From the NCBI RefSeq assembly GCF_001693735.1, contig NZ_LWDV01000010.1, forward strand, positions 492,552 to 556,551: a stretch of DNA of 64,000 bases, read 5' to 3'. The stretch is from Orenia metallireducens. GTDB taxonomy: Bacteria; Bacillota; Halanaerobiia; Halobacteroidales; Halobacteroidaceae. The notes below the pieces were generated by a model. That model searched no databases. It saw nothing but the letters and a program-made list of their open reading frames with translations, and was not told where the DNA came from. Positions 16,400 to 47,719 of the stretch are shown here, piece by piece. Positions within the stretch are counted from its first letter, which is position 1; the number at the start of each line of letters is the position of its first letter. A program made the position numbers and the translations under genes.

Positions 16400-16865
16400 A
16401 TTGATAACTCCTTTATTATAGTTTACAGTGTACAGTTAAGGTCTTTAAAAACCGAAGAAAATTTCTGTTTGAATGAAATAAAAATTGAGCTGAAATTTAG
16501 AGTCTAATCAAATTTTAAATAAGGAATATGATTAATGATAATAATTAGCACTTTGGTGGCTAAGTTAGTGGGCTTTGCCACGGAAAGTCTTGATCGGGTT
16601 TACCACGAAGGGTTTGCTTTTTAAACCCGTAGGTTAGACTCGTAGGTACATTTTCTTCTTGATTGGGTTTACCACGAAGAGTTTTTGTTCTGGGCTGCCC
16701 TTGCCACGAAAGGGTTGCTTTATAACCCCTGAAGGTAAAACTCGTAGGTTTGGCTAGATTTTCATCAATGAAAAACGTAACCCGCCCTTAGGCGGAATTG
16801 CTTGACTTTAAACTTTAGATTATAAGAATTAAAATGATTTGTCAATTAATTATTTATTACAACTT
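16400..16865. repeat. Partial copy of the long dispersed repeat
   Basis: Between 16553 and 16792 the sequence repeats modules found at 21509-21864 and 39177-39587: TTTACCACGAAGGGTTTG then AAACCCGTAGGTTAGA, and TTGCCACGAAAGGGTT then TAACCCCTGAAGGTA, each a small hairpin (GGGTTT/AAACCC). The flanks differ from the other copies, so this looks like a rearranged or truncated member. AATTAAGGTCTTTAAAAA-like text at its left is also shared with the 39-kb copy. No open frame of note. Confidence 0.65.
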
Positions 16866-21335: not shown

Positions 21336-21958
21336 CCCTGCACTCCTTTTGTATTATTTTAAACTATAATCTTCAAGCTGTCTATTAATATTAATTTTAC
21401 CCTATAATTATAATTATTATATTTTAATACATAAGGGAAATATGGGGATATTGCAACAGTTTTACTTTTTAAAAAGTAGACAAATTTTTAGGTTCTGCCT
21501 AAGGGCGGTTTACTTTTGTACCCAAAGGCATCATTCAGGAAGAAATAACTCTTCCTTCAAAGCTCATTGCCACAAAAACAAGCAAAAATCCTAGAAAAGA
21601 ATTAACCTACGAATCTACCTACAGGTTTAAAAACCAAACCCTTCGTGGTAAACCTAGAGCAAGACTCTTCGTAGTGGAGCCCACTCACTATGCAATCAAA
21701 ATTTATTGAAATCAATAAATCTTAGAGTTCTAATTCAAAGATTACATTGTTATTAATATCTATTTAGAATACTTGCTTCGTTCAAATATAAAGAAAACTT
21801 AGTGAAACAAGTGTTTTTTCTTATTGAACTTTAGTTGAACTTATCCTTTAGGGCTAATTCTTTTCACATATAAACACCTTAACTGTAAACACAAAAATTA
21901 TCACAATATATATCTATTATCTGAATTTATACTAATTCCAAAATCTCTACATAAGTCA
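21336..21958. repeat. Long dispersed repeat, inverted copy, with GATATTGC end motif
   Basis: The core 21509-21864, read on the minus strand, matches 39177-39587 almost base for base: AGAATTAGCCCTAAAGGATA, the AATTTTGATTGC..GTGAGTGGGCTC block, TTTACCACGAAGGGTTTGG and AGGAAGAGTTATTTCTTCC. It lacks the ~65-85-base GGGCTGCCCTTGCCACGAAA module present in the 39-kb copy. At 21441-21463 the boundary sequence TATGGGGATATTGCAACAG matches ends of other elements (33140-33118, 39126). No long open frame is conserved between copies. Confidence 0.8.
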
Positions 21959-36326: not shown

Positions 36327-37373
36327 TTATAATTCATATTTTTGATATACATCTTGGGCAAATTCATCTACGGCCTCAGTCAATACTCTATCAATCATCT
36401 CTTCATCAGAAGGAATAATTATAGATTCATCCTGATAATAATATTCACTATAGGTAGCTTTTTTAGTAACTGTCTTACTTAAAGCTATAGAAGCATCACT
36501 TACATCTAACAATTTAAATATAACTTTAGTATATGACTGCTTCTGTACATGATACCTTTTTTTCTGTTTACCATCCCAAGTTTCAACATACTCAGAACTT
36601 TCATCCTTATTTACACTTCCACTTAACACTTTACCTACAACTAGATAATCAACCCCTAAAATATTTCCTATCTCTTTGGCAGTCTCAGAATCAATTAATC
36701 CAGTTGCCCCTAACTGCTGCTCTTCTAAAATAGCATCAAGCTGTTTTCTCTCTACTACTTCAATAAATTTTGGATTTCTATCCAATAATTGAGCAGCAAA
36801 TAGACTAGTTGCTCTACTTCCTAAGTTATATCTATAGGTTGTATCTTCAAAATCAATTACGGCTATTCTCTTTAATCTTAGCTCTCTAAGCCTTTGATAT
36901 GCCAAGTTATACTTTTCATTAGTATCAAAATAATTATTATCATAAAATCTAACCTTCTCAAATTCATTATAAGCAAGCTCCCAGTTACCCTCTGACAAAT
37001 AGTCACTTCCTAATTGATAATGGCGCTTTTTATACTCTTCTTTGGCATTATATAATAATCTATTGACCTCTACACTATCTTTAACATCTTTAGCCTGAGA
37101 CAAATCTCTAATAGCTAAACCATACTCCCCTTTTCCTAGGTACATCTTCCCTTTACTTAGATGGTTTTGATATGTCTCTTCACGGTGATTTTTAATCATC
37201 TTATAAATACCAACTACCCCTAAAATCACTAAAGCTCCAATCAATCCCTTCTTCATTCCATCTGAATCATCTGAACTAGCAGAAACTGTTTGAGCGCGGG
37301 CATAGTCAATTCCTACAAAAGAAACCAACATAAATACCATTAAAATTACTGAGACAACTCTCCTAGCTTTCAA
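36327..37373 (-). CDS. CsgG-domain envelope protein with TPR-like repeats
   Basis: 348 residues. A signal peptide (~1-28, ending ARA) is followed by a Ser/Asp-rich linker and a second hydrophobic helix (~43-60, KKGLIGALVILGVVGIYKMI). Two TPR-like helical repeats (~75-155: YLGKGEYGLAIRDLSQAK, YLSEGNWELAYNEFEKV) lead into a CsgG-type domain (~167-345: RIAVIDFEDTTYRYNLGS, VVERKQLDAILEEQQLG, LGVDYLVVGKVLSG). CsgG-like domains occur in curli pores and in periplasmic assembly proteins; here no lipobox or pore segment is evident, so a periplasmic scaffold is more likely. First in sequence of an envelope cluster that continues to 47.7 kb. Confidence 0.85.
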   Translation of the reverse strand: MKARRVVSVILMVFMLVSFVGIDYARAQTVSASSDDSDGMKKGLIGALVILGVVGIYKMIKNHREETYQNHLSKGKMYLGKGEYGLAIRDLSQAKDVKDSVEVNRLLYNAKEEYKKRHYQLGSDYLSEGNWELAYNEFEKVRFYDNNYFDTNEKYNLAYQRLRELRLKRIAVIDFEDTTYRYNLGSRATSLFAAQLLDRNPKFIEVVERKQLDAILEEQQLGATGLIDSETAKEIGNILGVDYLVVGKVLSGSVNKDESSEYVETWDGKQKKRYHVQKQSYTKVIFKLLDVSDASIALSKTVTKKATYSEYYYQDESIIIPSDEEMIDRVLTEAVDEFAQDVYQKYEL

Positions 37374-37672
37374 TTTTAAAATTCCCCTTTCTCTACTCCG
37401 TAGTTTATTATACTTAATTTAATTATTTTAAATATAATTATTTATTGCATATTCTACATTAACAATAACAAATCCTCCATTATTATAAAATTTAATTAAC
37501 CTAACAATAATTATCCAATGATTCTAAATTGAATAATATAATAGGATTTATGTAATTAGATATGATGGTAAAAAATAATGAGTGACAGATGACGAGAAGA
37601 GCTCCTTACTCCTTATCCATCACTTGTCACTCATTATCACACTATCATAATCTCTTCACTATGTTATATCAA
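37374..37672 (-). terminator. Intergenic gap with repeat-derived terminator (37577-37635)
   Basis: AATGAGTGACAGATGA and TCACTTGTCACTCATT form a long imperfect stem; on the minus strand it is followed by ATTATTTTTTACC. It lies ~40 bases after the TolB-like gene. The arms resemble GAGTGA/TCACTC intergenic repeat words near 2550 and 8360. The rest of the gap is AT-rich and holds nothing else I could identify. Confidence 0.6.
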
Positions 37673-39058
37673 TTAATCTTGCCACTCTGGCTCATTATAA
37701 TTTACCTTCTTCTTAGAGATAATCTCTCTCTTCTCTTCCTTTCTTGTAAACAGGTTAATCTCTCTACCCTCTATACCATCACTTACATACAAGATCAATT
37801 GTTCTTCTCTATCCCAAAGAGCATAATTATAGACTCTACCATTAACCTTCATTATATCTTTCAAATTACTACCATTAGGAGCGATTTGATAAATTATTGA
37901 CTTTCCAGAACTATAATTATTAAATATAATCTCTTCTTCATCACCTGACCAAGCTGGCTGAGAGTCAGTGCCAAACCCACTATTCAATAACATCTTAGCA
38001 GTACCATCCTCTTGCATCACATGCAATTTCCTCTCTCCAGTTGTTGCTGAGATATAAGCAATTGATTGATATTTAGAAGAATAAGCAATCTGACTATCAT
38101 AATAGTTATTATCAGTTAATCTCTGTAAATAAGTACCTGTTAAATCACTCTTATAGATATCAAAGTCACCATCTCGATTAGAAGCAAACAAAATTGTATT
38201 CTTATCTAACCAGACTGGACTCTCTTTATCTGTTGTTGTAAAGGTCACCTGTCTTAGATTAGATCCATCAGCATTCATTACGTAAATATTTGTATTCCCA
38301 TCTCTATTAGATAAGAATAGAAGTTGCTCCCCATCAGCAGACCAGTTAGGTGCCCAATCATCACCCTTATCATCGGTTAACTTCACCACATTCTTAGCAT
38401 AAATATCTGTTACATAGATACTCTTACTCTTCTCCTTATCACTGACAAAGAAGAATTTAGCCTCTCTCTTACTTTCAAGAGCAATCTCTTCATTAAATAA
38501 CTTATCCTTACCTTCTAGATTAATTACTTTAGTCCATACCATATAACCTGGAGAACTGACCTTTACTAATCTGTCTTCTATAGTAGGGTTCTCTATTACA
38601 GGGATTTTTTTAATTGTAAAATAACCATTAGCATCAGTCTCAACCAGCTGATTACCTATCTCAACAGTAACCCCTGCTAAGGACTCCCCTTTAAATCTAT
38701 CGATTACCTGTCCACTTAAATTCATATAATTTCTTTCTAATTGAATAGAGATTGATTTATCCCCTTCTTCTAACAGAACCTGCTTAGTCTTAGCAATGTA
38801 ATCTTTACCACTTAACCTGACTACACTATCTTTACCATCAATATCCTCAATTACAGGAATATTATTAACAATAAAATATCCTTGATTATTTGTCTTTACA
38901 ACTTGATTTCCAACCTCCACAGTAATCCCTACTAAAGGCTCTCCTGTGAACTTATCAGTTACATTACCTCTTAAATTCATAAATTTATCATCTTGACAAC
39001 CTATTACTGTTATAGAAACCACAAGTAATAATATAAGTAATTTTAATCTTCTCAACAT
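37673..39058 (-). CDS. Lipoprotein with two CarboxypepD-like domains and a TolB-type beta-propeller
   Basis: About 461 residues. Lipobox VIGC after a hydrophobic leader marks a lipoprotein. Two consecutive carboxypeptidase-regulatory-like beta domains follow (~30-110 and ~112-195), near duplicates: LRGNVTDKFTGEPLVGITVE and LSGQVIDRFKGESLAGVTVE. The C-terminal half is a WD40/PD40 propeller with TolB-style blades (WSADGEQLLFLSNRDGNTNIYVMNADGS, and FASNRDGDFDIYKSDL). Such proteins bind protein or glycan partners at the cell surface. The ATG at 39058 follows GGGAGG. Separated from the LPP20-like gene by an 0.8-kb repeat-filled gap. Confidence 0.9.
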   Translation of the reverse strand: MLRRLKLLILLLVVSITVIGCQDDKFMNLRGNVTDKFTGEPLVGITVEVGNQVVKTNNQGYFIVNNIPVIEDIDGKDSVVRLSGKDYIAKTKQVLLEEGDKSISIQLERNYMNLSGQVIDRFKGESLAGVTVEIGNQLVETDANGYFTIKKIPVIENPTIEDRLVKVSSPGYMVWTKVINLEGKDKLFNEEIALESKREAKFFFVSDKEKSKSIYVTDIYAKNVVKLTDDKGDDWAPNWSADGEQLLFLSNRDGNTNIYVMNADGSNLRQVTFTTTDKESPVWLDKNTILFASNRDGDFDIYKSDLTGTYLQRLTDNNYYDSQIAYSSKYQSIAYISATTGERKLHVMQEDGTAKMLLNSGFGTDSQPAWSGDEEEIIFNNYSSGKSIIYQIAPNGSNLKDIMKVNGRVYNYALWDREEQLILYVSDGIEGREINLFTRKEEKREIISKKKVNYNEPEWQD

Positions 39059-39073
39059 AAATCCTCCCTTCAA

Positions 39074-39749
39074 TTTATTAGAGCATACTATCTTAATTCA
39101 ATAATAATATAAATTTTATCACTTCATGGGTATATTGCGATGCTTCTTTCAATTAATAATTAAGGTCTTTAAAAAGGAGAAGAATTAGCCCTAAAGGATA
39201 AGTTCAACTAAAGTTCAGTAAGAAAAACACTTACTTCACTAAGTTTCCTTTATATTTGAGCGAAGCAAATATTCTAAACAAATAATAATAACAATGTAAT
39301 CTTTGAATTAGAACTCTAAGATTTATTGATTTCAATAAATTTTGATTGCGTAGTGAGTGGGCTCTACCACGAAGAGTCTTGCTCTAGGTTTACCACGAAG
39401 GGTTTGGTTCTTAAACCCGTAGGTAGATTCGTAGGTTAATTCTTTTCTAGACCGGGCTGCCCTTGCCACGAAAGGGTTACTTTATAACCCCGAAGGTAAA
39501 ACTCGTAGGTTTGGTTACTTTTGCGGCAATGGGCTTTGAAGGAAGAGTTATTTCTTCCTGAATGATGCCTTTGGGTACAAAAGTAACACGAGAACGCCCT
39601 GAAAGAAGTGCCCTTGGGGTGAAAGCTGATAAGCTTTCTCGTAATAGTTTTTTGTTGAAGATTTGTTTGCCTTAAAAAAAATAACTTTGCAATACCTATC
39701 TATTGTACCAATTTTATATTAGCATAGAAATATTAATCCAAGGATTACA
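39074..39749. repeat. Long dispersed repeat, complete copy, with GATATTGC-like ends
   Basis: The core 39177-39587 is the fullest copy of the repeat also found inverted at 21509-21864 and partly at 16553-16792. It contains hairpin modules TTTACCACGAAGGGTTTGG then TTAAACCCGTAGG, and TTGCCACGAAAGGGTTAC then TATAACCCCGAAGG. The outer ends resemble the shared boundary motif: ATGGGTATATTGCGATGC at 39126-39143 and, on the other strand, AGATAGGTATTGCAAAGT at ~39701-39684. Plus-strand open frames here are short and not shared between copies. Confidence 0.75.
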
Positions 39750-39884
39750 TTACTCAAACTCAACAATATCTCCCTTCAAAGTTACATCTTCAGACTCTAT
39801 AATTTCAGCAATAACCGCTCCTTTACTGATACTAATAATCTTAACACTACCAATAGGCAGACTTACTGCTTTTTCAACACTCTT
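39750..39884 (-). pseudogene. Remnant resembling a FlgT-type C-terminal domain
   Basis: A ~45-codon open stretch just after the LPP20-like gene, in a different frame, reads KSVEKAVSLPIGSVKIISIS, then KGAVIAEIIESEDVTLKGDIVEFE and stop. The pattern (GxVxIxxVxxxxAxAxI...xxGDxV) is that of small SH3-like C-terminal domains such as in FlgT-type proteins. It has no start codon or ribosome site and is preceded by a stop, so it looks like the tail of a gene lost when the adjacent repeat element arrived. Confidence 0.45.
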
Positions 39885-39897
39885 TTATAAAGTAGAT

Positions 39898-40770
39898 TTA
39901 ATTTAAAACAATAACTACTTTACAGTTATTAAAAATTCCATTACTTCCCCCTACTTGTTCTAAGCTTCTAGCATCTTTATCATCTAAAATTAGGTCAGTA
40001 CTATATCTTCCCTTAACCTTTATAGCATTAATAATCAATGGATTCTTACCTACTCTTGGATTGGCCTTAGCATCTGCTAGGCTTCTATTGTAACCTACAA
40101 TTCCTTGAGTAATGACCCCATCACTTTGAATCTTACTCATACCATAAACTAAACTTCCATCCTCACTATAAATCTTTGGAGCTAGCGCTGGCTTGGCATC
40201 TATATTCAATGTATTGATAATGACTCCTGTATAATCACTATCTACTAAATTAGCAGATTCTTCTGAAGTATCGTTACTATTATCAAAATTATCATTATTA
40301 TTAAAGGTTTTACTACTTTCTTTACTTATACTAGGGAAAATCGCTTTCATAATACCATCTTTTCCATAGAATTGAACTTGCATTACAACTTGATATACCT
40401 TATCTGCCACTTTCTTCTCTTCAATAATTTGGGCACCTCTTACTACACCACTTACTCTCTTATTGATAATATCAGATTGGATTTGAGCATTCTTAACGGT
40501 CTGTTCAGAATCTATTTGAACCCCCCTAACTGTCTCTAGTAACCTTCTTTGTGCCATTGTAATAGCAGCTTCTCTAGCCATAATCTTAGCTTGAGCCTCA
40601 TTTGTAATATAATCAGGAGCAACACCATAGCCAATTGCCTCTACTACTGACTTTTCCCAATCAGTAACTGTATTATCACCTTCATCAAATAATCCCTCTG
40701 CAAAAGAGAATTGGGTTCCAATGAACAATATCATCACTATAACTAATAAGATATTAATTCTTTTATTCAT
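39898..40770 (-). CDS. Secreted LPP20-domain-like protein
   Basis: 290 residues with a clear signal peptide (ILLVIVMILFIGTQFSFAEG, cleavage near 25). No lipobox Cys. The N-terminal half (~35-150) has the LPP20/FlgT-N pattern: AIGYGVAPDYITNEAQAKIM then AREAAITMAQRRLLETVRGV (~46-85) and VSGVVRGAQIIEEKKVADKVYQV. An Asn/Asp/Ser-rich linker (~155-178) leads to a C-terminal domain (~180-290: YTGVIINTLNIDAKPALAPKIY, GRYSTDLILDD). Lies 22 bases after the FlgT-like gene, so co-transcribed; both share the same N-terminal fold type. Function unknown; likely periplasmic or outer-membrane-associated. Confidence 0.82.
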   Translation of the reverse strand: MNKRINILLVIVMILFIGTQFSFAEGLFDEGDNTVTDWEKSVVEAIGYGVAPDYITNEAQAKIMAREAAITMAQRRLLETVRGVQIDSEQTVKNAQIQSDIINKRVSGVVRGAQIIEEKKVADKVYQVVMQVQFYGKDGIMKAIFPSISKESSKTFNNNDNFDNSNDTSEESANLVDSDYTGVIINTLNIDAKPALAPKIYSEDGSLVYGMSKIQSDGVITQGIVGYNRSLADAKANPRVGKNPLIINAIKVKGRYSTDLILDDKDARSLEQVGGSNGIFNNCKVVIVLN

Positions 40771-40792
40771 ACTTATAACCTCCTTAACTTAA

Positions 40793-41947
40793 TTATTTAA
40801 CCTCTAAGATTAACTTTCCTTCTGACATATTCTTAATTTCAAAACTGAAAGGAACCTTCTCTTCCAACTCTATTGCTATATCAAAAACCTCCACGGCAGG
40901 TTCTAAATCTATATCAAAGGTGAGCAATTCATTGCCAAACTCTCTAAAGAATACATTTACTACTCCTGACAGAGTAGGCAGAGTTCTCTTTATTTGACCT
41001 AACTGACTTAATGAACTGATACCATTAATTTGTAATTGAATAGTCTTCTCTTGCTGAATTAAGTCATTACTCATCTTATTGATTAATTTATCTGTAATAT
41101 TCCCTGTAGCTTCTATGATTGACTTTTTAGCAGCCATCTCCTTATTGATTCCTACACCCTTACCATCATCAGTTACAGCAGCAATAACTTGTGCTGTAGT
41201 TGCATTGATAACACGAGCTTCAACTTGGGCATTATACGATTTCAAGCTTCTAGCGATACCATCTAAAGTATTTCTTAAATCAATATAATTTGACCTAATA
41301 CTACCTATCACAACAAAATCAGCTTTTAATTGTATCCCCAATTTAACGGCCAAATTATAATCTCCACTGATAATTGATCTTCTTTCTTCTCTATTAATCA
41401 CTGAATCAATCTTATAACGATCTATCACTTGGAACCCTGACTCTATAAACTTATTCATCATTTCAGTCTCTGCCAAACTATCTGGTAATTTAACATAATA
41501 GTCGTCCATTTCCTGGGAGATTAAAACCATAACTCTTGGATTGCCAATCCTTTTTATATTCAGCTTCAAAGCATCTAAATCATCTGCTAATACTTTTGTT
41601 CCAACTCTAACTTTAAGTTTGACTATATAGATATCATCATCAATTGATTGATCGATTATTTGATACCCTTTTACATATCCTTGGCTACTTTTTAGAATCT
41701 TATCTTCAATTAATCGAGCATTCTTTACCATGGTTGAAGAGCTAATGAAGGTACCTACAGCCTGCTCTACAGCCCTTCTTAATCCATCGTTAATGGCTTT
41801 TTTCTCAGTATTAACTAAACCATCACCTCCTAAATATGCTTTCCCCTTAGTCTCTATGACAATACTATCTTCAGCTAACACAGATTGTGTAAAGCTAAAA
41901 ATAATTATTAAAGCCACAAATAATTTATATAATCTCTTCTGCAACAT
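40793..41947 (-). CDS. FlgT-like secreted protein
   Basis: About 384 residues with a signal peptide (LYKLFVALIIIFSFTQSVLAED). The N-terminal domain (~30-115) matches the FlgT-N pattern, IETKGKAYLGGDGLVNTEKK then AINDGLRRAVEQAVGTFISS; the middle domain (~125-290: NPRVMVLISQEMDD, FIESGFQVIDRYKID, GIQLKADFVVIGSI) has the TolB-N/CsgG-like fold of FlgT-M. In Vibrio FlgT builds the flagellar H-ring in the outer membrane; in Firmicute relatives the role is unknown. ATG at 41947 after GGGAGTGG. Probably one operon with the LPP20-like gene. Confidence 0.82.
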   Translation of the reverse strand: MLQKRLYKLFVALIIIFSFTQSVLAEDSIVIETKGKAYLGGDGLVNTEKKAINDGLRRAVEQAVGTFISSSTMVKNARLIEDKILKSSQGYVKGYQIIDQSIDDDIYIVKLKVRVGTKVLADDLDALKLNIKRIGNPRVMVLISQEMDDYYVKLPDSLAETEMMNKFIESGFQVIDRYKIDSVINREERRSIISGDYNLAVKLGIQLKADFVVIGSIRSNYIDLRNTLDGIARSLKSYNAQVEARVINATTAQVIAAVTDDGKGVGINKEMAAKKSIIEATGNITDKLINKMSNDLIQQEKTIQLQINGISSLSQLGQIKRTLPTLSGVVNVFFREFGNELLTFDIDLEPAVEVFDIAIELEEKVPFSFEIKNMSEGKLILEVK

Positions 41948-42176
41948 TATAGCCACTCCCATCTTCTAGTTTCACAATTACCTATATTAATTCTATGCAC
42001 TTACATTAATTCCCTTGTTAAAAATGTATTAATTTATTATCAGTTGCTTTTAGAAGCTTTTACTACCTCCCTTTAATATCCTTGGTGTAGCTGTTATCCG
42101 TTAGTATCAGCTAATTAGTAAAAACAGCTTTCAATACTTATACTCTTATATACAGTGATATTAATTCAATATGAAT

Positions 42177-42208
42177 AAAGAAGAAGCAGATTAATCTGCT
42201 TCTTCTTT
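42177..42208 (-). terminator. Terminator after the outer-membrane barrel gene
   Basis: AAAGAAGAAGCAGATT/AATCTGCTTCTTCTTT palindrome with T-rich 3' side on the minus strand, four bases from the stop at 42212. Confidence 0.8.
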
Positions 42209-42211
42209 ATT

Positions 42212-43435
42212 CTAAAACTCTATTTTAAGATTTAAAGCACCTTCTACCCCTTGGGATTTATTAAATAATCCCATTAAATCAGAAATACCTAAATCTGCTT
42301 CAAATATCCATAACTTCAATCCCATTCCTGCTGACCAATCAAAGTCCTTTCTAAGTGTAGAATAACTTATTCCAGTCCTTAATGGTAAAAACTCAAGCCA
42401 TGTTAACTCTGTTGCAGTAGCAAATTTATGATCTCTTTGACCATCATGATAACTTGTATATGAATAATCAGCAAATAAATCAATATTTTCATTCCAGTTC
42501 ATCTTTCCACCTAAGCGAATAGTAGATGGTAGTTGATACTTTAACTCTTCATCTTTAACAACTTCACTATCTCCAACCTCTTCAAATTCTTCTGTAGCTT
42601 CGTTATATTCATATCTAATTTCATGAATCTTATTTACTTTTAAAGCACCTATATTCATTACACTAAAACCAAGGCTATACTTATCATTTAAGTCTGCATA
42701 TACTCCAAAATCAAAAGCTGAGCCCTTTGCCGCGTTATCACTAATACCTTCTAATTCATTATATTTAGCTACAAAGTAGCCATCTCCTCTTACTACAGCA
42801 TCTCCATTTTCATCATAAGTGATTATAGTAGTACCATTACCCTCTAAAGCAAAGATTGCTCCAGATAACTGATGATAAGTCAGCCCCATCCTTAAATCTT
42901 TTAATTTCCACTCCTCTTTTAGCTCCTCAGGGCTGATGGAAAAATTGATACCGATATCGCCATAAACTGCTCCAGAACCTTTACTACCATTAAAGTTATA
43001 AGTCTTGCCAATTTCATTCCCCTTTAATAATAGCTCGGTTACATCATTGGATAATTCAACTAGTGCAGAACCTCTACCTTCTGAGCTAATAGCTACAGAT
43101 CCTACAACCAATTTGAAACCGTTATTTGAATCTGCCCCTACCAAAAATCCATCTTCAACCTTGTCCAATAAATCATCCTTCATACCATCATCAATATAAT
43201 CATTAATCAATAGGTTATTCCATAGACCACCTGCTAGTCCAAGTTCAAAGGTAAAGCGATCTAGTGTAGCATTAACCGCTCCCGGATTACCATAAATAGC
43301 ATCTGCTCCTGTCACTGTAACAAACTCATCACTAAGACCAATAGTCTTAGCTGAAGAAGCAGCCTCTATATTAGTATTTACCGTTGAAATTAATATTAAG
43401 AACAATAATGAAATCATCATAATAGTTTTAAACAT
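42212..43435 (-). CDS. Predicted outer-membrane beta-barrel (TraF/PorV-like)
   Basis: 407 residues: signal peptide (MMISLLFLILISTVNTNIEAAS), then the conserved GLSDEFVTVTGADAIYGNPGAVN start typical of TraF_2/PorV-type barrels, then alternating-hydrophobicity strands to the end. The last residues LNLKIEF end in Phe, the signature of outer-membrane beta-signals recognised by BamA in diderms. Barrel-like repeats such as YGDIGINFSIS, FDFGVYADLNDKYSLGFSVMNIGAL and LFADYSYTSY are typical. It is direct sequence support for a diderm envelope. Co-oriented with the lipoprotein gene upstream (19-base gap), so probably one operon. Confidence 0.85.
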   Translation of the reverse strand: MFKTIMMISLLFLILISTVNTNIEAASSAKTIGLSDEFVTVTGADAIYGNPGAVNATLDRFTFELGLAGGLWNNLLINDYIDDGMKDDLLDKVEDGFLVGADSNNGFKLVVGSVAISSEGRGSALVELSNDVTELLLKGNEIGKTYNFNGSKGSGAVYGDIGINFSISPEELKEEWKLKDLRMGLTYHQLSGAIFALEGNGTTIITYDENGDAVVRGDGYFVAKYNELEGISDNAAKGSAFDFGVYADLNDKYSLGFSVMNIGALKVNKIHEIRYEYNEATEEFEEVGDSEVVKDEELKYQLPSTIRLGGKMNWNENIDLFADYSYTSYHDGQRDHKFATATELTWLEFLPLRTGISYSTLRKDFDWSAGMGLKLWIFEADLGISDLMGLFNKSQGVEGALNLKIEF

Positions 43436-43454
43436 TTACTCTTCACCCCCTATT

Positions 43455-44939
43455 TTATTCTTTGTTTTGATTGACTTTAAGTACTAAAACTCCATAAGAT
43501 TCAATACTAATCTCTTGATCAGGTGTAAAACTAGCAGTATCTGTACCATTTCCTACCTTTACTTTCATTGCTAAATAACTTTTATCTTTAAACTTATTTA
43601 GAACCTCTTGATTAAATACAAATTCCTTTGTAGCTTCTCCCAATGGAATATCTACTATTTTATCAATAAAGACATAAGTATTATCAAAAGTTGGACTATT
43701 TCCTACATAAAGATCGATTGAAATAATAACATTAGACCCTAGGTTATTGACTGTCTTCGTTACTAATCTACCCTCTTTTAATCCATCATTAATCCTATCT
43801 ATATCATCATTGCTAATATCAAAACTAGATATTTCTTCATATACTAAATTACTATCTTCAACTTTTAAATTGTCTGCATCTTCTGGAGGAAGATTAATTA
43901 TTAATGACCCATAGATAGCTGTATCTAAAGTAACTGATTGAGTAGAATCATAATTAACAGTACTGGCGGTTGTATTTAATTTTCCTGATATAAATAACTC
44001 ATCACTTATATTTGTATCTGCTGGAAGATCATAATACCCATCCCCATTAGTATCTGTAATAGTAACTCCTCCAAGCGTAAAGTTACTTATCTCAAAATCT
44101 AAATTACTATCTACAGGAAATAATGTATTCAATCGTAGATGAGCCCCTTCACTTCCAGTTATAGCAGTATTACTCCCAAAATTTAAACTTGGTGTGAAAT
44201 TAAGAGTATCCATACTATTAAGTTCACTAGCATGAAGTCCCTTTACTTTACTAATCTCCAAAGAGGATGAAGTTATATCTACTGTAAAAGTAGTTGTTCC
44301 TGAACTCTGGATTCCCTTAACAGCTAATTTCATTCCACTCTCTAAAGTTTTTTGGGCTAAATCCATCTCTAAACTCTTTGTAGTGCCTACAGCAACATTT
44401 TCAAAGGTAACACTAGAAATTACTGTACCCTGTGAGTTCTGTAATTCGATAGTCAAATTATCCAACTTATTTTCTATAGATTCTTTATTGGTATTATTCA
44501 AAAATACATTAAATTTATTTATTGAAAGATTCTTACTAGATAAGGTTATGCTATCAAATTTATCAAATGGAATAGGATCAAGTATTACTTTACTAAACTC
44601 TCCATTTTCAGCAGCACCATCAGCTGACAAATTTACTAAAACGGAATTTAATGTAATAGGTTTCAAATTAATCTCTGTTTCCTTCTTGATTTCATTCTCT
44701 TTTGCTCCCACTAATATTAAACTAATAGTACTATCTGCATTAATCTTATAACCAAACTCTTTAAATTCTTTAGTATCAAGCAATTCAGCTAATGCATTAC
44801 TCTGCTTAATAGCTGGAGCCTGTAAAGCCACATCCCATGCTGGACCAAAGGTACCTCGACTATTCTCAGAACAGCCTGAGAATACTAAAGAAGAGGCTAT
44901 AACAATCAAAAGTAGAGTCAACATCTTCTTCATTTCCAT
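43455..44939 (-). CDS. Large lipoprotein of unknown function
   Basis: 494 residues; lipobox VFSGC after a typical leader (lipidated Cys ~23). The mature part is mostly beta-rich, Ser/Thr/Asn-rich, without cysteines or recognisable catalytic motifs; repeated phrases like ISLILVGAKENEIKKETEI, SITLSSKNLSINKFNVFLNN and LEISKVKGLHASEL suggest several Ig- or filament-like beta domains. I do not recognise a family. ATG preceded by AGGAGTG. Its position directly before the outer-membrane barrel suggests a partner of that barrel. Confidence 0.8.
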   Translation of the reverse strand: MEMKKMLTLLLIVIASSLVFSGCSENSRGTFGPAWDVALQAPAIKQSNALAELLDTKEFKEFGYKINADSTISLILVGAKENEIKKETEINLKPITLNSVLVNLSADGAAENGEFSKVILDPIPFDKFDSITLSSKNLSINKFNVFLNNTNKESIENKLDNLTIELQNSQGTVISSVTFENVAVGTTKSLEMDLAQKTLESGMKLAVKGIQSSGTTTFTVDITSSSLEISKVKGLHASELNSMDTLNFTPSLNFGSNTAITGSEGAHLRLNTLFPVDSNLDFEISNFTLGGVTITDTNGDGYYDLPADTNISDELFISGKLNTTASTVNYDSTQSVTLDTAIYGSLIINLPPEDADNLKVEDSNLVYEEISSFDISNDDIDRINDGLKEGRLVTKTVNNLGSNVIISIDLYVGNSPTFDNTYVFIDKIVDIPLGEATKEFVFNQEVLNKFKDKSYLAMKVKVGNGTDTASFTPDQEISIESYGVLVLKVNQNKE

Positions 44940-45001
44940 AATTTCACTCCTTTTTTAAAGTATTATTAATTTTTATATAAATCTTATAATTTTCTATCAA
45001 A

Positions 45002-45475
45002 TTAATGTAAATTACCTTCTCTATGAATAACATCATAAGCAAAAAGAACATAATCAATCTCAGCAGTTGTCATCCCTTCTTCTTTAGCTAATTCTCTAAC
45101 TATCTTAATGATAAGTAGATAATCTTCAGGTTCAAAACGCTCCTTCTCTCTAGTAAAATAACCTATTCGATAAAGTGCTGCCCATACTCTAGTATCAATC
45201 ACACAATGCTGTTTCTCATCTAAGCTGGTCAAAATAGCAGAAGCAGTTGGTGTTCCTCCCCCCTTTAAACTACTCAATAAAACAACTTGAGCAAACTCAT
45301 CATTAATCTTATAAGCTATCTCTATAATACTCTCTACTCGCCCTTCTGGATTCTTATGTACATGATAAGAGCTTCTTGTAGAATTGAGATGAGCCAATCG
45401 ATATAATTCATCTTTACTTAGATATCCTTTCTGATGATACTCCTTTCCATAAAGAACATAGAAAACTAAATTATT
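45002..45475 (-). CDS. HhH-GPD-like/unknown helical protein without a clear start
   Basis: Open frame of ~158 codons (stop-free from about 45475). The text RLAHLNSTRSSYHVHKNPEG, LKGGGTPTASAILTSLDE and CVIDTRVWAALYRIGYF resembles a family of small helix-hairpin-helix proteins related to DNA glycosylases (KGVGxPxASAILT...VIDxRxW). The N-terminal text LVFYVLYGKEYHQKGYLSKDEL is coherent but has no ATG, GTG or TTG start; the first usable start is TTG at 45397, which would drop ~26 residues and has no ribosome site. Either N-terminally truncated or expressed from an unusual start. The catalytic Asp of glycosylases was not identified. Confidence 0.55.
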   Translation of the reverse strand, partial: NNLVFYVLYGKEYHQKGYLSKDELYRLAHLNSTRSSYHVHKNPEGRVESIIEIAYKINDEFAQVVLLSSLKGGGTPTASAILTSLDEKQHCVIDTRVWAALYRIGYFTREKERFEPEDYLLIIKIVRELAKEEGMTTAEIDYVLFAYDVIHREGNLH

Positions 45476-45596
45476 TAATTATAATTTATAAATTCTATAA
45501 GAATATAATAATTCCTCTATATTTTTCTTAGATATAACAAACTAGAGAAGAATCGATAAATTTTATATAACTATCTATTCTTATTACCAACAAAAA

Positions 45597-45622
45597 AAGG
45601 ACTACTGAAAAGTAGTCCTTTA
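45597..45622 (-). terminator. Terminator after the SpoIID-domain gene
   Basis: AAAGGACTACT-TTTC-AGTAGTCCTTT followed by TTTTGTTGG on the minus strand, ten bases below the stop at 45632. Confidence 0.85.
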
Positions 45623-45631
45623 AGCTAAATC

Positions 45632-47719
45632 TTAATACCTATCTTCAATTGTAGTATCGGTATAGAAATGATTTAATATATCTATATATTGATAGTTATC
45701 ATCTGCCATTGCAGCTACTGCAACTTGATCCATACCAACACTGTGTCCCCAACCACCACCATAGAATAGGAAACTGACTAGTTTACCATCTTGATATTGT
45801 GGTTGAATCCAGAAACGATTACTGCGTAAACCACCAAATTTAGAACGTAAGCTATAAGTGATTTCTTTCTCCTCTTCTGTTCCCACTACTAATAGAGATT
45901 TTACACTACCAGCTTTTCCTCTATAGGTAGGAACAATCTTCTTAATTCCTTTAATTCCCAAGCTATTTTCTAAATATTCTACTGAGAGATTACGTTGCCA
46001 ACGATAATGGCTCTCCTTTGTATACTGTAATGCTTTGGAATATGAATCTGGAGACTTCCTCAACCAGTCCTTTAATTCTGCAGGATTTAGAGGGAATTGA
46101 GAATCTTCTTTTTCAGTAGACACTGCTCTTAAATAACCTATTTCAAAGGTCCATACATCTTCACTATTCTCTGTATATCCTCCAGAGTTGGCACTATAAA
46201 CAGCATTAACTGCTTTACCATTATAAGTCATCACTTCACCTGCTGTCTCTAGTACAGCTTGATTGGAATTAGGATGTTCCCGATTAATTCCTCGATAAGC
46301 AGCACAGTGAACGTCAGAACATAAGTCATATCCATCTTTAGAGTGCTTACCTAAGTTAGCTAGTGTATAACTTCTAGCAGCTACCGCCTGTGTCTTTAGA
46401 GCCTCTATAGGCCATAACGCTGACATTTCAGAAGGAATAACAGCCATTAGATATTCTTCCATATGAACTAAGTTAACTACAGTAATTCCCTTCTCTTGAG
46501 GAATTAACTCTAATGCTCCACGATATTGGCGATCTTCAATACCTCCCCAATAATATCCTCTTCCATAAATTATATTATGCACTAGTACTGGAGCATACTC
46601 TTTGGGTCTTACTTGAATAGAGTCACTAAACACTATCTCTTTCTCACCAGCTATTAGATAGTACTTATCATCTCTAATAATAGCCTTTACAAGCTCTGAC
46701 TTCTTACCTTCTAAAATAATTTTTTCCCCTTCTTTGATTATAAAGTCACTACCTACTCTAAAATATACCTCTTCTTCATCCTCGATAATTCCTATTCTCA
46801 ACTCTCTTCCTGGGCTTTCAATAGGTTTTATCTCCTTGAAAGTCACCACTTTAGGAATCTCTCTCTTTCTCTCTTCTGGCAATGTTAAATCTTTATCATC
46901 AAAATATTCTGGATGCTCTTCTTTTAGTCGGTCTAGATTCTCTTGAATTGCTTGGTCACTAGAATTCTCTTTATTTGCTTGTTTTAAATATATAACGGCA
47001 TTTCTATCTTCACCTAAATTTAGATAAGATAATGCAATCATTCTATTTACACCTTTTAAGCTTCCATCGGTTGTTAGTGCTTTTTTGTAATTATCTATAG
47101 CAATACTATACTTTCCTTGAACAAAGTTAATCTTACCTAATTGGTAGTAGCCTAAAGCAAAATTATTATAACCTAATGCACTTCTAATATAATCCTCTGC
47201 TTGCTGATAGTTCTCTTCTTTAAAGGATATTAAACTCAAATAATAATTAGTATCTCTTAAGATAAATTTATCTTCTGACTGTGAGTTTAATATCTTTTCC
47301 AATTCAATTTTCGCTTCATTAATTTTATCTAAATTATAATAAGCAATAGCCAAATCCAACCTAATATCAACATAATCTTCTTTTTCTAATATTGCTTCAT
47401 ATTCTTTAATAACTAAACTATATTCACCTAAAGTTTCATAAACTGATGCCAAATTCTCTCTAGCAATCTTATTATCTTTATATTCTAATATCTGCTTATA
47501 TTTTTCTATACTCTCATCATATTCCCCTTGGTAATATAAAGATCTTGCTTCATCCAATAGTTTGTCTAAATCATAAACAACTTGCTCCTCTTGATTCTCT
47601 TTAACTTCTTGCTGACTTGAGTGATTATAATAAGCAAATATTCCAGAACTTATAAGTGATAACAAGATTACACCTATTGCTGTAACTTTTAAATATTTGT
47701 CTTCTAATTTATTCCACAT
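45632..47719 (-). CDS. TPR-SpoIID/LytB-domain protein
   Basis: 695 residues. N-terminal membrane anchor (~10-32, YLKVTAIGVILLSLISSGIFAYY), then about six TPR units (~50-265: YYQGEYDESIEKYKQILEYK, TLGEYSLVIKEYEAIL, AYYNLDKINEAKIELEKIL), a linker, and a SpoIID domain (~375-690). SpoIID landmarks: YRGALELIPQ, MEEYLMAVIPSEM, ALKTQAVAARSYTL, TAGEVMTYNGKAVNAVYSAN, GGYTENSEDVW and the end GWGHSVGMDQVAV. In sporulation SpoIID is a lytic transglycosylase; SpoIID-like proteins also occur in non-sporulating envelopes, including a known amidase enhancer (LytB). The TPR extension suggests recruitment to a complex, possibly the adjacent envelope cluster. Confidence 0.92.
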   Translation of the reverse strand: MWNKLEDKYLKVTAIGVILLSLISSGIFAYYNHSSQQEVKENQEEQVVYDLDKLLDEARSLYYQGEYDESIEKYKQILEYKDNKIARENLASVYETLGEYSLVIKEYEAILEKEDYVDIRLDLAIAYYNLDKINEAKIELEKILNSQSEDKFILRDTNYYLSLISFKEENYQQAEDYIRSALGYNNFALGYYQLGKINFVQGKYSIAIDNYKKALTTDGSLKGVNRMIALSYLNLGEDRNAVIYLKQANKENSSDQAIQENLDRLKEEHPEYFDDKDLTLPEERKREIPKVVTFKEIKPIESPGRELRIGIIEDEEEVYFRVGSDFIIKEGEKIILEGKKSELVKAIIRDDKYYLIAGEKEIVFSDSIQVRPKEYAPVLVHNIIYGRGYYWGGIEDRQYRGALELIPQEKGITVVNLVHMEEYLMAVIPSEMSALWPIEALKTQAVAARSYTLANLGKHSKDGYDLCSDVHCAAYRGINREHPNSNQAVLETAGEVMTYNGKAVNAVYSANSGGYTENSEDVWTFEIGYLRAVSTEKEDSQFPLNPAELKDWLRKSPDSYSKALQYTKESHYRWQRNLSVEYLENSLGIKGIKKIVPTYRGKAGSVKSLLVVGTEEEKEITYSLRSKFGGLRSNRFWIQPQYQDGKLVSFLFYGGGWGHSVGMDQVAVAAMADDNYQYIDILNHFYTDTTIEDRY

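Follow-up and report, generated by a model that had tools for sequence, protein, structure and literature searches.

A linked set of CsgG-, FlgT- and LPP20-type envelope genes in Orenia metallireducens: a candidate outer-membrane scaffold with relatives in flagellar rings

The window analysed here is a stretch of 64,000 nucleotides on a contig (C10) of the 3.47 Mb genome of Orenia metallireducens (G000), and the open reading frames between positions 36327 and 47719 are co-oriented, all of them lying on the minus strand (Table 1). A sequence-only reading had described them as eight envelope genes, which is right as to coordinates and orientation but not as to the eighth gene (G), which encodes a DNA glycosylase. 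Domain searches bear out its calls of a CsgG-TPR protein (A), a CarboxypepD-propeller protein (B), a DUF5723 barrel ending in Phe (E), a lipobox protein (F) and a TPR-SpoIID protein (H); the LPP20-like (C) and FlgT-like (D) calls are weak by single sequence and firm by profiles and models. Gene order, which it had proposed to check, is conserved, the genes being found in the order arsR-A-B-X-C-D-E-F-ogg-H-galU in two genomes of the same genus; in the family comparison, G003 and G005 largely keep this order and G004 is rearranged.

Table 1. Features of the locus, in positions of the window (X, second CsgG gene, of which a remnant is left).
Feature	Position	Strand	Description
A	36327..37373	-	348 aa; signal peptide, TPRs, CsgG-type domain; Pfam CsgG 60.9 bits
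B	37673..39073	-	466 aa lipoprotein; two CarboxypepD_reg domains and TolB-type beta-propeller
Dispersed repeat	39130..39745	.	fills most of former X gene; 52 matches in own genome
X remnant	39753..39878	-	last 42 codons of second CsgG gene; tblastn 81% identity, E 2.7e-15
C	39898..40770	-	290 aa; LPP20/FlgP-like SHS2 domain with ring-hairpin-length insert, Tp0624-type second domain
D	40793..41962	-	389 aa; SHS2 (33-121) with hairpin, CsgG/TolB-N-like domain (129-303), separate C-terminal domain
E	42212..43435	-	outer-membrane barrel, DUF5723, Pfam 43.3 bits, ends in Phe
F	43455..44939	-	lipobox lipoprotein; orthologs about 200 aa longer
G	45002..45397	-	truncated N-glycosylase/DNA lyase (8-oxoguanine-type, cytoplasmic); NCBIfam PRK01229 E 2.7e-7
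H	45632..47719	-	membrane-anchored TPR-SpoIID, beside galU; TIGR02669 212.8 bits

Gene A, with orthologs in four relatives (85, 66, 52 and 42% identity), exceeds the Pfam cut-off for CsgG of 20.8 bits, as does D (23.3 bits). Both thereby share a domain with the curli protein CsgG, from which the locus differs in that A is fused to TPRs and the full-length X is lost. X is intact in two genomes of the same genus (L025, L026), for instance as L025:6797-7675, which encodes 292 aa and scores 76 bits for CsgG, and its loss in O. metallireducens follows from the CsgG-family matches of that genome, which are two only, A and D, with no third. The gap of 824 bp between B and C (39074-39897) consists of the X remnant and the dispersed repeat; the same intergenic repeat is also present at 21510-21910 and 16552-16770. 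At the family loci of G003, G004 and G005 no X was seen. CsgG-domain proteins encoded at L030:10741-12075 and L032:11309-12613, are possible CsgG-barrel fusions, since on visual inspection their C-terminal part resembles an outer-membrane barrel with a final Phe. As for the propeller lipoprotein B, it adjoins C/D in five other family genomes. A propeller also occurs in the relative G014 (L036:9662-11065), there of the PQQ/BamB type and fused to FlgT_N; this fusion gene adjoins an LPP20-like gene, lies a few kb from flagellar genes and is comparable to the arrangement here, in which D and the propeller (B) are separate genes lying close together.

The LPP20 name for C is owed to profiles and would not be justified by single-sequence Pfam searches, in which C alone gives chance-level matches only (LPP20 E 0.17-0.23). 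A profile made from 13 relatives matches FlgP of the Campylobacter jejuni basal disk (9HMF) with E 6.2e-24, in an alignment that is gapless across the ring-forming hairpin region, and also matches Vibrio FlgP (E 1.5e-6) and, when the second domain of C is taken in, Treponema Tp0624 (E 3.9e-11). In contrast to the C. jejuni protein, C carries an extra domain and, on inspection, has no lipobox, since its signal peptide ends in FSFAEG with no Cys and thus shows no lipoprotein signal. The model of C (pLDDT 72, falling below 50 in the hairpin part) has a full-length fold match in domains D1-D2 of Treponema pallidum Tp0624 (5JIR), at Z 15.5 over 206 residues, but lacks the OmpA-like D3 of that protein; among the structure matches listed for C, this one alone goes beyond the SHS2 domain. 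Monophyly of the Halanaerobial sequences is not rejected in the tree of C (p-AU 0.53).

For D, the single-sequence Pfam matches are likewise weak (FlgT_N E 6.5e-5, CsgG E 4.5e-5), and the profile comparison with FlgP reaches E 5.2e-10. A FlgT-like protein on record for Orenia metallireducens shares 81% identity with D. The model (pLDDT 84) has as its best Foldseek match Vibrio FlgT (3w1e; E 1.2e-9), to which it aligns with VIA Z 12.5 over 217 residues, at an rmsd of 10 across two domains. Its hairpin is a strand pair at 72-92, in the same place as the insert of the FlgP family, and by model comparison the middle domain resembles the N-terminal domain of TolB as well as CsgG; the C-terminal domain (305-388) lies outside the coverage of the structure matches listed. 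Another likeness is to Leptospira LipL46, since D matches NF033164 over residues 40-316 (E 1.7e-12), although its 46.7 bits stand against a family cut-off of 400 and it shows no lipobox on inspection. In the tree, true FlgT is placed away from D, its branch being long (3.12), with long branches meeting and an unresolved backbone. Judged by these profiles and models, C and D are truly related to the proteins of flagellar rings. The comparison with the Vibrio H-ring (FlgO, FlgP, FlgT) is close in several respects, as D has both N-terminal FlgT domains, C has the FlgP SHS2 domain, and CsgG/FlgO-type proteins are linked to them; the C-terminal domain of D, unmatched in the listed matches, and the Tp0624-type domain added to C set the two apart, as does the lack of a link with flagellar genes in the Orenia family.

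The remaining genes belong to other modules. E is present in single copy in 36 of 61 genomes of the class, mostly without D, and is on another contig than D in G004, G006, G007 and G010; it forms a separate, class-wide module and is likely a general outer-membrane protein of the class. F is possibly surface-exposed and evolves fast, its identity between species of the same genus being 29-37% as compared with 48-86% for the other genes. G has lost about 30 N-terminal residues, reads GGG where sister species have GVG, and is probably decaying. The membership of H in the system is doubtful. An inverted repeat is visible in the sequence after E (about 42209-42176), and terminator-like sites are found after H (45621-45596) and after galU. 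Outside the host family, relatives of B, E, F and H occur at none of 61 D-bearing loci. Because of this absence, and because E is mostly found without D and on other contigs, the unit is A-B-(X)-C-D, E-F and H-galU being mere neighbours, and what had been taken for one envelope cluster of eight genes is a row of several modules. The distribution of E across the class, elsewhere than D in the four genomes named, together with the absence of relatives of B, E, F and H from the D loci of other families, led to the rejection of a single eight-gene complex.

This also bears on the secretion complex suggested from the sequence alone, taken here as the proposal of a CsgG-type pore through which some surface protein would be exported, E and F serving as its partners in the outer membrane. 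The CsgG domains of A and D agree with such a pore, as do the rapid evolution of F, as in an exposed protein, and the adjacency of E and F in several family genomes. However, X, the sole gene for a full-length CsgG domain, is destroyed here and none is seen at the three other family loci, which weakens the proposal; moreover, the two hairpin regions of A are charge-rich on inspection, and E and F travel apart from the genes around D. A secretion pore is consequently regarded as improbable.

What does recur around D is a combination of protein types. Of the 15 class genomes that have D, 13 also have full-length C, which is missing from all 46 genomes that lack D (p = 1.6e-11, for 61 genomes that are related and so not independent). 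Outside the host family, 61 D-like loci (a sample in which Selenomonadaceae and Alteromonadaceae are over-represented) were considered; a CsgG-family neighbour is present at 42 of them, an LPP20 neighbour at 25 and either at 47, and all 92 of the CsgG/LPP20 partner genes lie on the strand of D, with none opposite. The genome scan used profile A2, A1 being too diverse for it. Such loci are found in Selenomonadaceae, Alteromonadaceae, Thermodesulfobacteriota, Myxococcota, Latescibacterota, Fermentibacterota and WOR-3. Linkage of envelope-targeted CsgG/FlgT/LPP20-type proteins beyond chance is thus supported. Of the earlier suggestion that the genes act together, this linkage, the co-occurrence of C and D and the conserved order are what stands, a joint function of all eight genes being unsupported; its restriction of the system to diderm Firmicutes has to be given up, as Alteromonadaceae, Thermodesulfobacteriota, Latescibacterota and others have the kit as well. 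In Alteromonas lipolytica, for example, it comprises a FlgT-like protein, a TPR-CsgG protein, an fn3 protein, an LPP20 protein, an SLT transglycosylase and an LPP20 protein with an extension, and a separate true FlgT (E 2.2e-26) is encoded elsewhere, about 10 kb from FlgH.

The transglycosylase within this Alteromonas set and the SpoIID gene near the Orenia locus are lytic enzymes of the kind expected if the proteins were LpoB-like regulators of peptidoglycan synthesis or hydrolysis, and A does have a weak match to LpoB (18.6 bits), which is stronger in relatives (49.6 bits in Mitsuokella). Nevertheless, A stays under the LpoB cut-off of 22.3 bits, the SpoIID gene has its own terminator-like site and is found at none of the D-bearing loci beyond the host family, and such a role would leave the ring inserts of the SHS2 proteins unexplained, so that regulators of this type seem, if anything, slightly less probable still than a secretion pore.

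A more serious alternative is that the locus builds a flagellar accessory ring, like the H-ring or the basal disk, around the L-ring, where it would stiffen the outer membrane or recruit stators. The sequence-only reading had seen no flagellar genes, which is correct for the neighbourhood but not for the genome, as FlgH is encoded on the same contig (C10:646019) and two flagellin-family genes on another. The genome has no second FlgT_N or C-like gene, making this locus its sole FlgT/FlgP-like set; kit and flagella are found together in 8 of 8 family genomes, and the nearest solved relatives of the proteins are those of flagellar rings. Furthermore, the genes are in the order FlgT-LPP20-FlgO in G032 and are followed 265 bp on by a flagellin, a linkage to flagellar genes that the Orenia locus does not share, and flagellins lie within about 9 kb of the triad in G014 and G017. 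A flagellar role of the kit is possible in O. metallireducens and may be real in some relatives; by the trees of C and D, the Orenia and the flagellin-linked copies may or may not be orthologous. In published RNA-seq of O. metallireducens Z6, the expression of nearly all flagellar genes drops under pressure (PMC12948478).

On the other hand, FlgH is about 110 kb away from the locus, and the kit is missing in most flagellated members of the class (among 49 good genomes, FlgH is present in 42 and D in 13). Triad copies in G019 and G058 are located among metabolic genes, and D is divergent from true FlgT. Sets related to the kit are also found in genomes without flagella, in which respect they differ from the Vibrio H-ring: Mitsuokella jalaludinii and M. 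multacida possess the D-CsgG pair, and neither FlgH nor a flagellin was found in them. Across 121 genomes of Selenomonadaceae, FlgT-like genes are present in 9 of 10 without FlgH and in 93 of 111 with it (p = 1), and because occurrence is independent of FlgH, the FlgT-like family is untied to flagella; since profile A4, on which this census is based, picks up further FlgT-like paralogs as well, the test applies to the family and not to each triad. FlgT-like genes are often present in several copies per Selenomonadaceae genome, and up to 14 matches were counted in a single genome of the family (G181, G194), far exceeding the need of one motor type. A scan for sigma-D promoters found no site upstream of the core, but is uninformative because the flagellin of L034 is also without one. 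An accessory ring of the motor is a tentative reading, and over it we favour a general scaffold.

According to the favoured reading, to which we give about an even chance, A, C and D (with B and X) would be the local version of a recurrent kit that serves the outer membrane as a general scaffold, without being devoted to the flagellum. The kit would be composed of CsgG-family proteins together with two others, one FlgT-like and one an SHS2 protein resembling LPP20/FlgP; B would be a partner specific to the lineage, and X the second CsgG, now lost. In the FlgP family, the proteins that form rings tend to be those in which a hairpin is inserted after the SHS2 helix and before the second strand (PMC12222027). 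Ring formation by C and D would be expected because the region of this insert is present in C, according to the alignment, and in D, according to the model. The ring assembly, localisation and function that we infer for the kit would then run as follows: C and D would be exported to the periplasm, where oligomerisation through the SHS2 hairpins would yield a ring or a patch lying against the outer membrane; a second layer would come from the CsgG/TolB-N domains present in A and D, and TPRs and propeller would offer docking surfaces. Such a scaffold may hold the outer membrane or seat envelope machines in it. In Helicobacter, the outer-membrane barrier is guarded during flagellar rotation by a ring that is encoded in one operon with flgP, and therefore rings of the flgP neighbourhood can serve membrane integrity (PMC11756786). 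A wider proposition, which we hold only tentatively, is that SHS2 proteins of the LPP20/FlgP type together with FlgT-type and CsgG-type proteins form a widespread non-flagellar outer-membrane ring machine, spread over at least six bacterial phyla, and that the H-ring and basal disk of flagella would have been recruited from it.

Diderm-type flagella have been described in Halanaerobiales by Antunes et al. 2016 (PMC5007114), who mention neither FlgT nor CsgG. In the open-access literature searched, most subscription papers lying outside the search, no paper joins FlgT, CsgG and LPP20; each fold is already known, and it is the linked kit that is unnamed in these papers. Flagellar outer rings are usually regarded as add-ons of the motor. 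A gene set that links the same building blocks and is also found in bacteria lacking flagella points to a scaffold with a more general role at the outer membrane; the origin of flagellar outer rings becomes a question that genetics can test in laboratory strains, and a candidate structure is added to the little-known outer membrane of Halanaerobiales.
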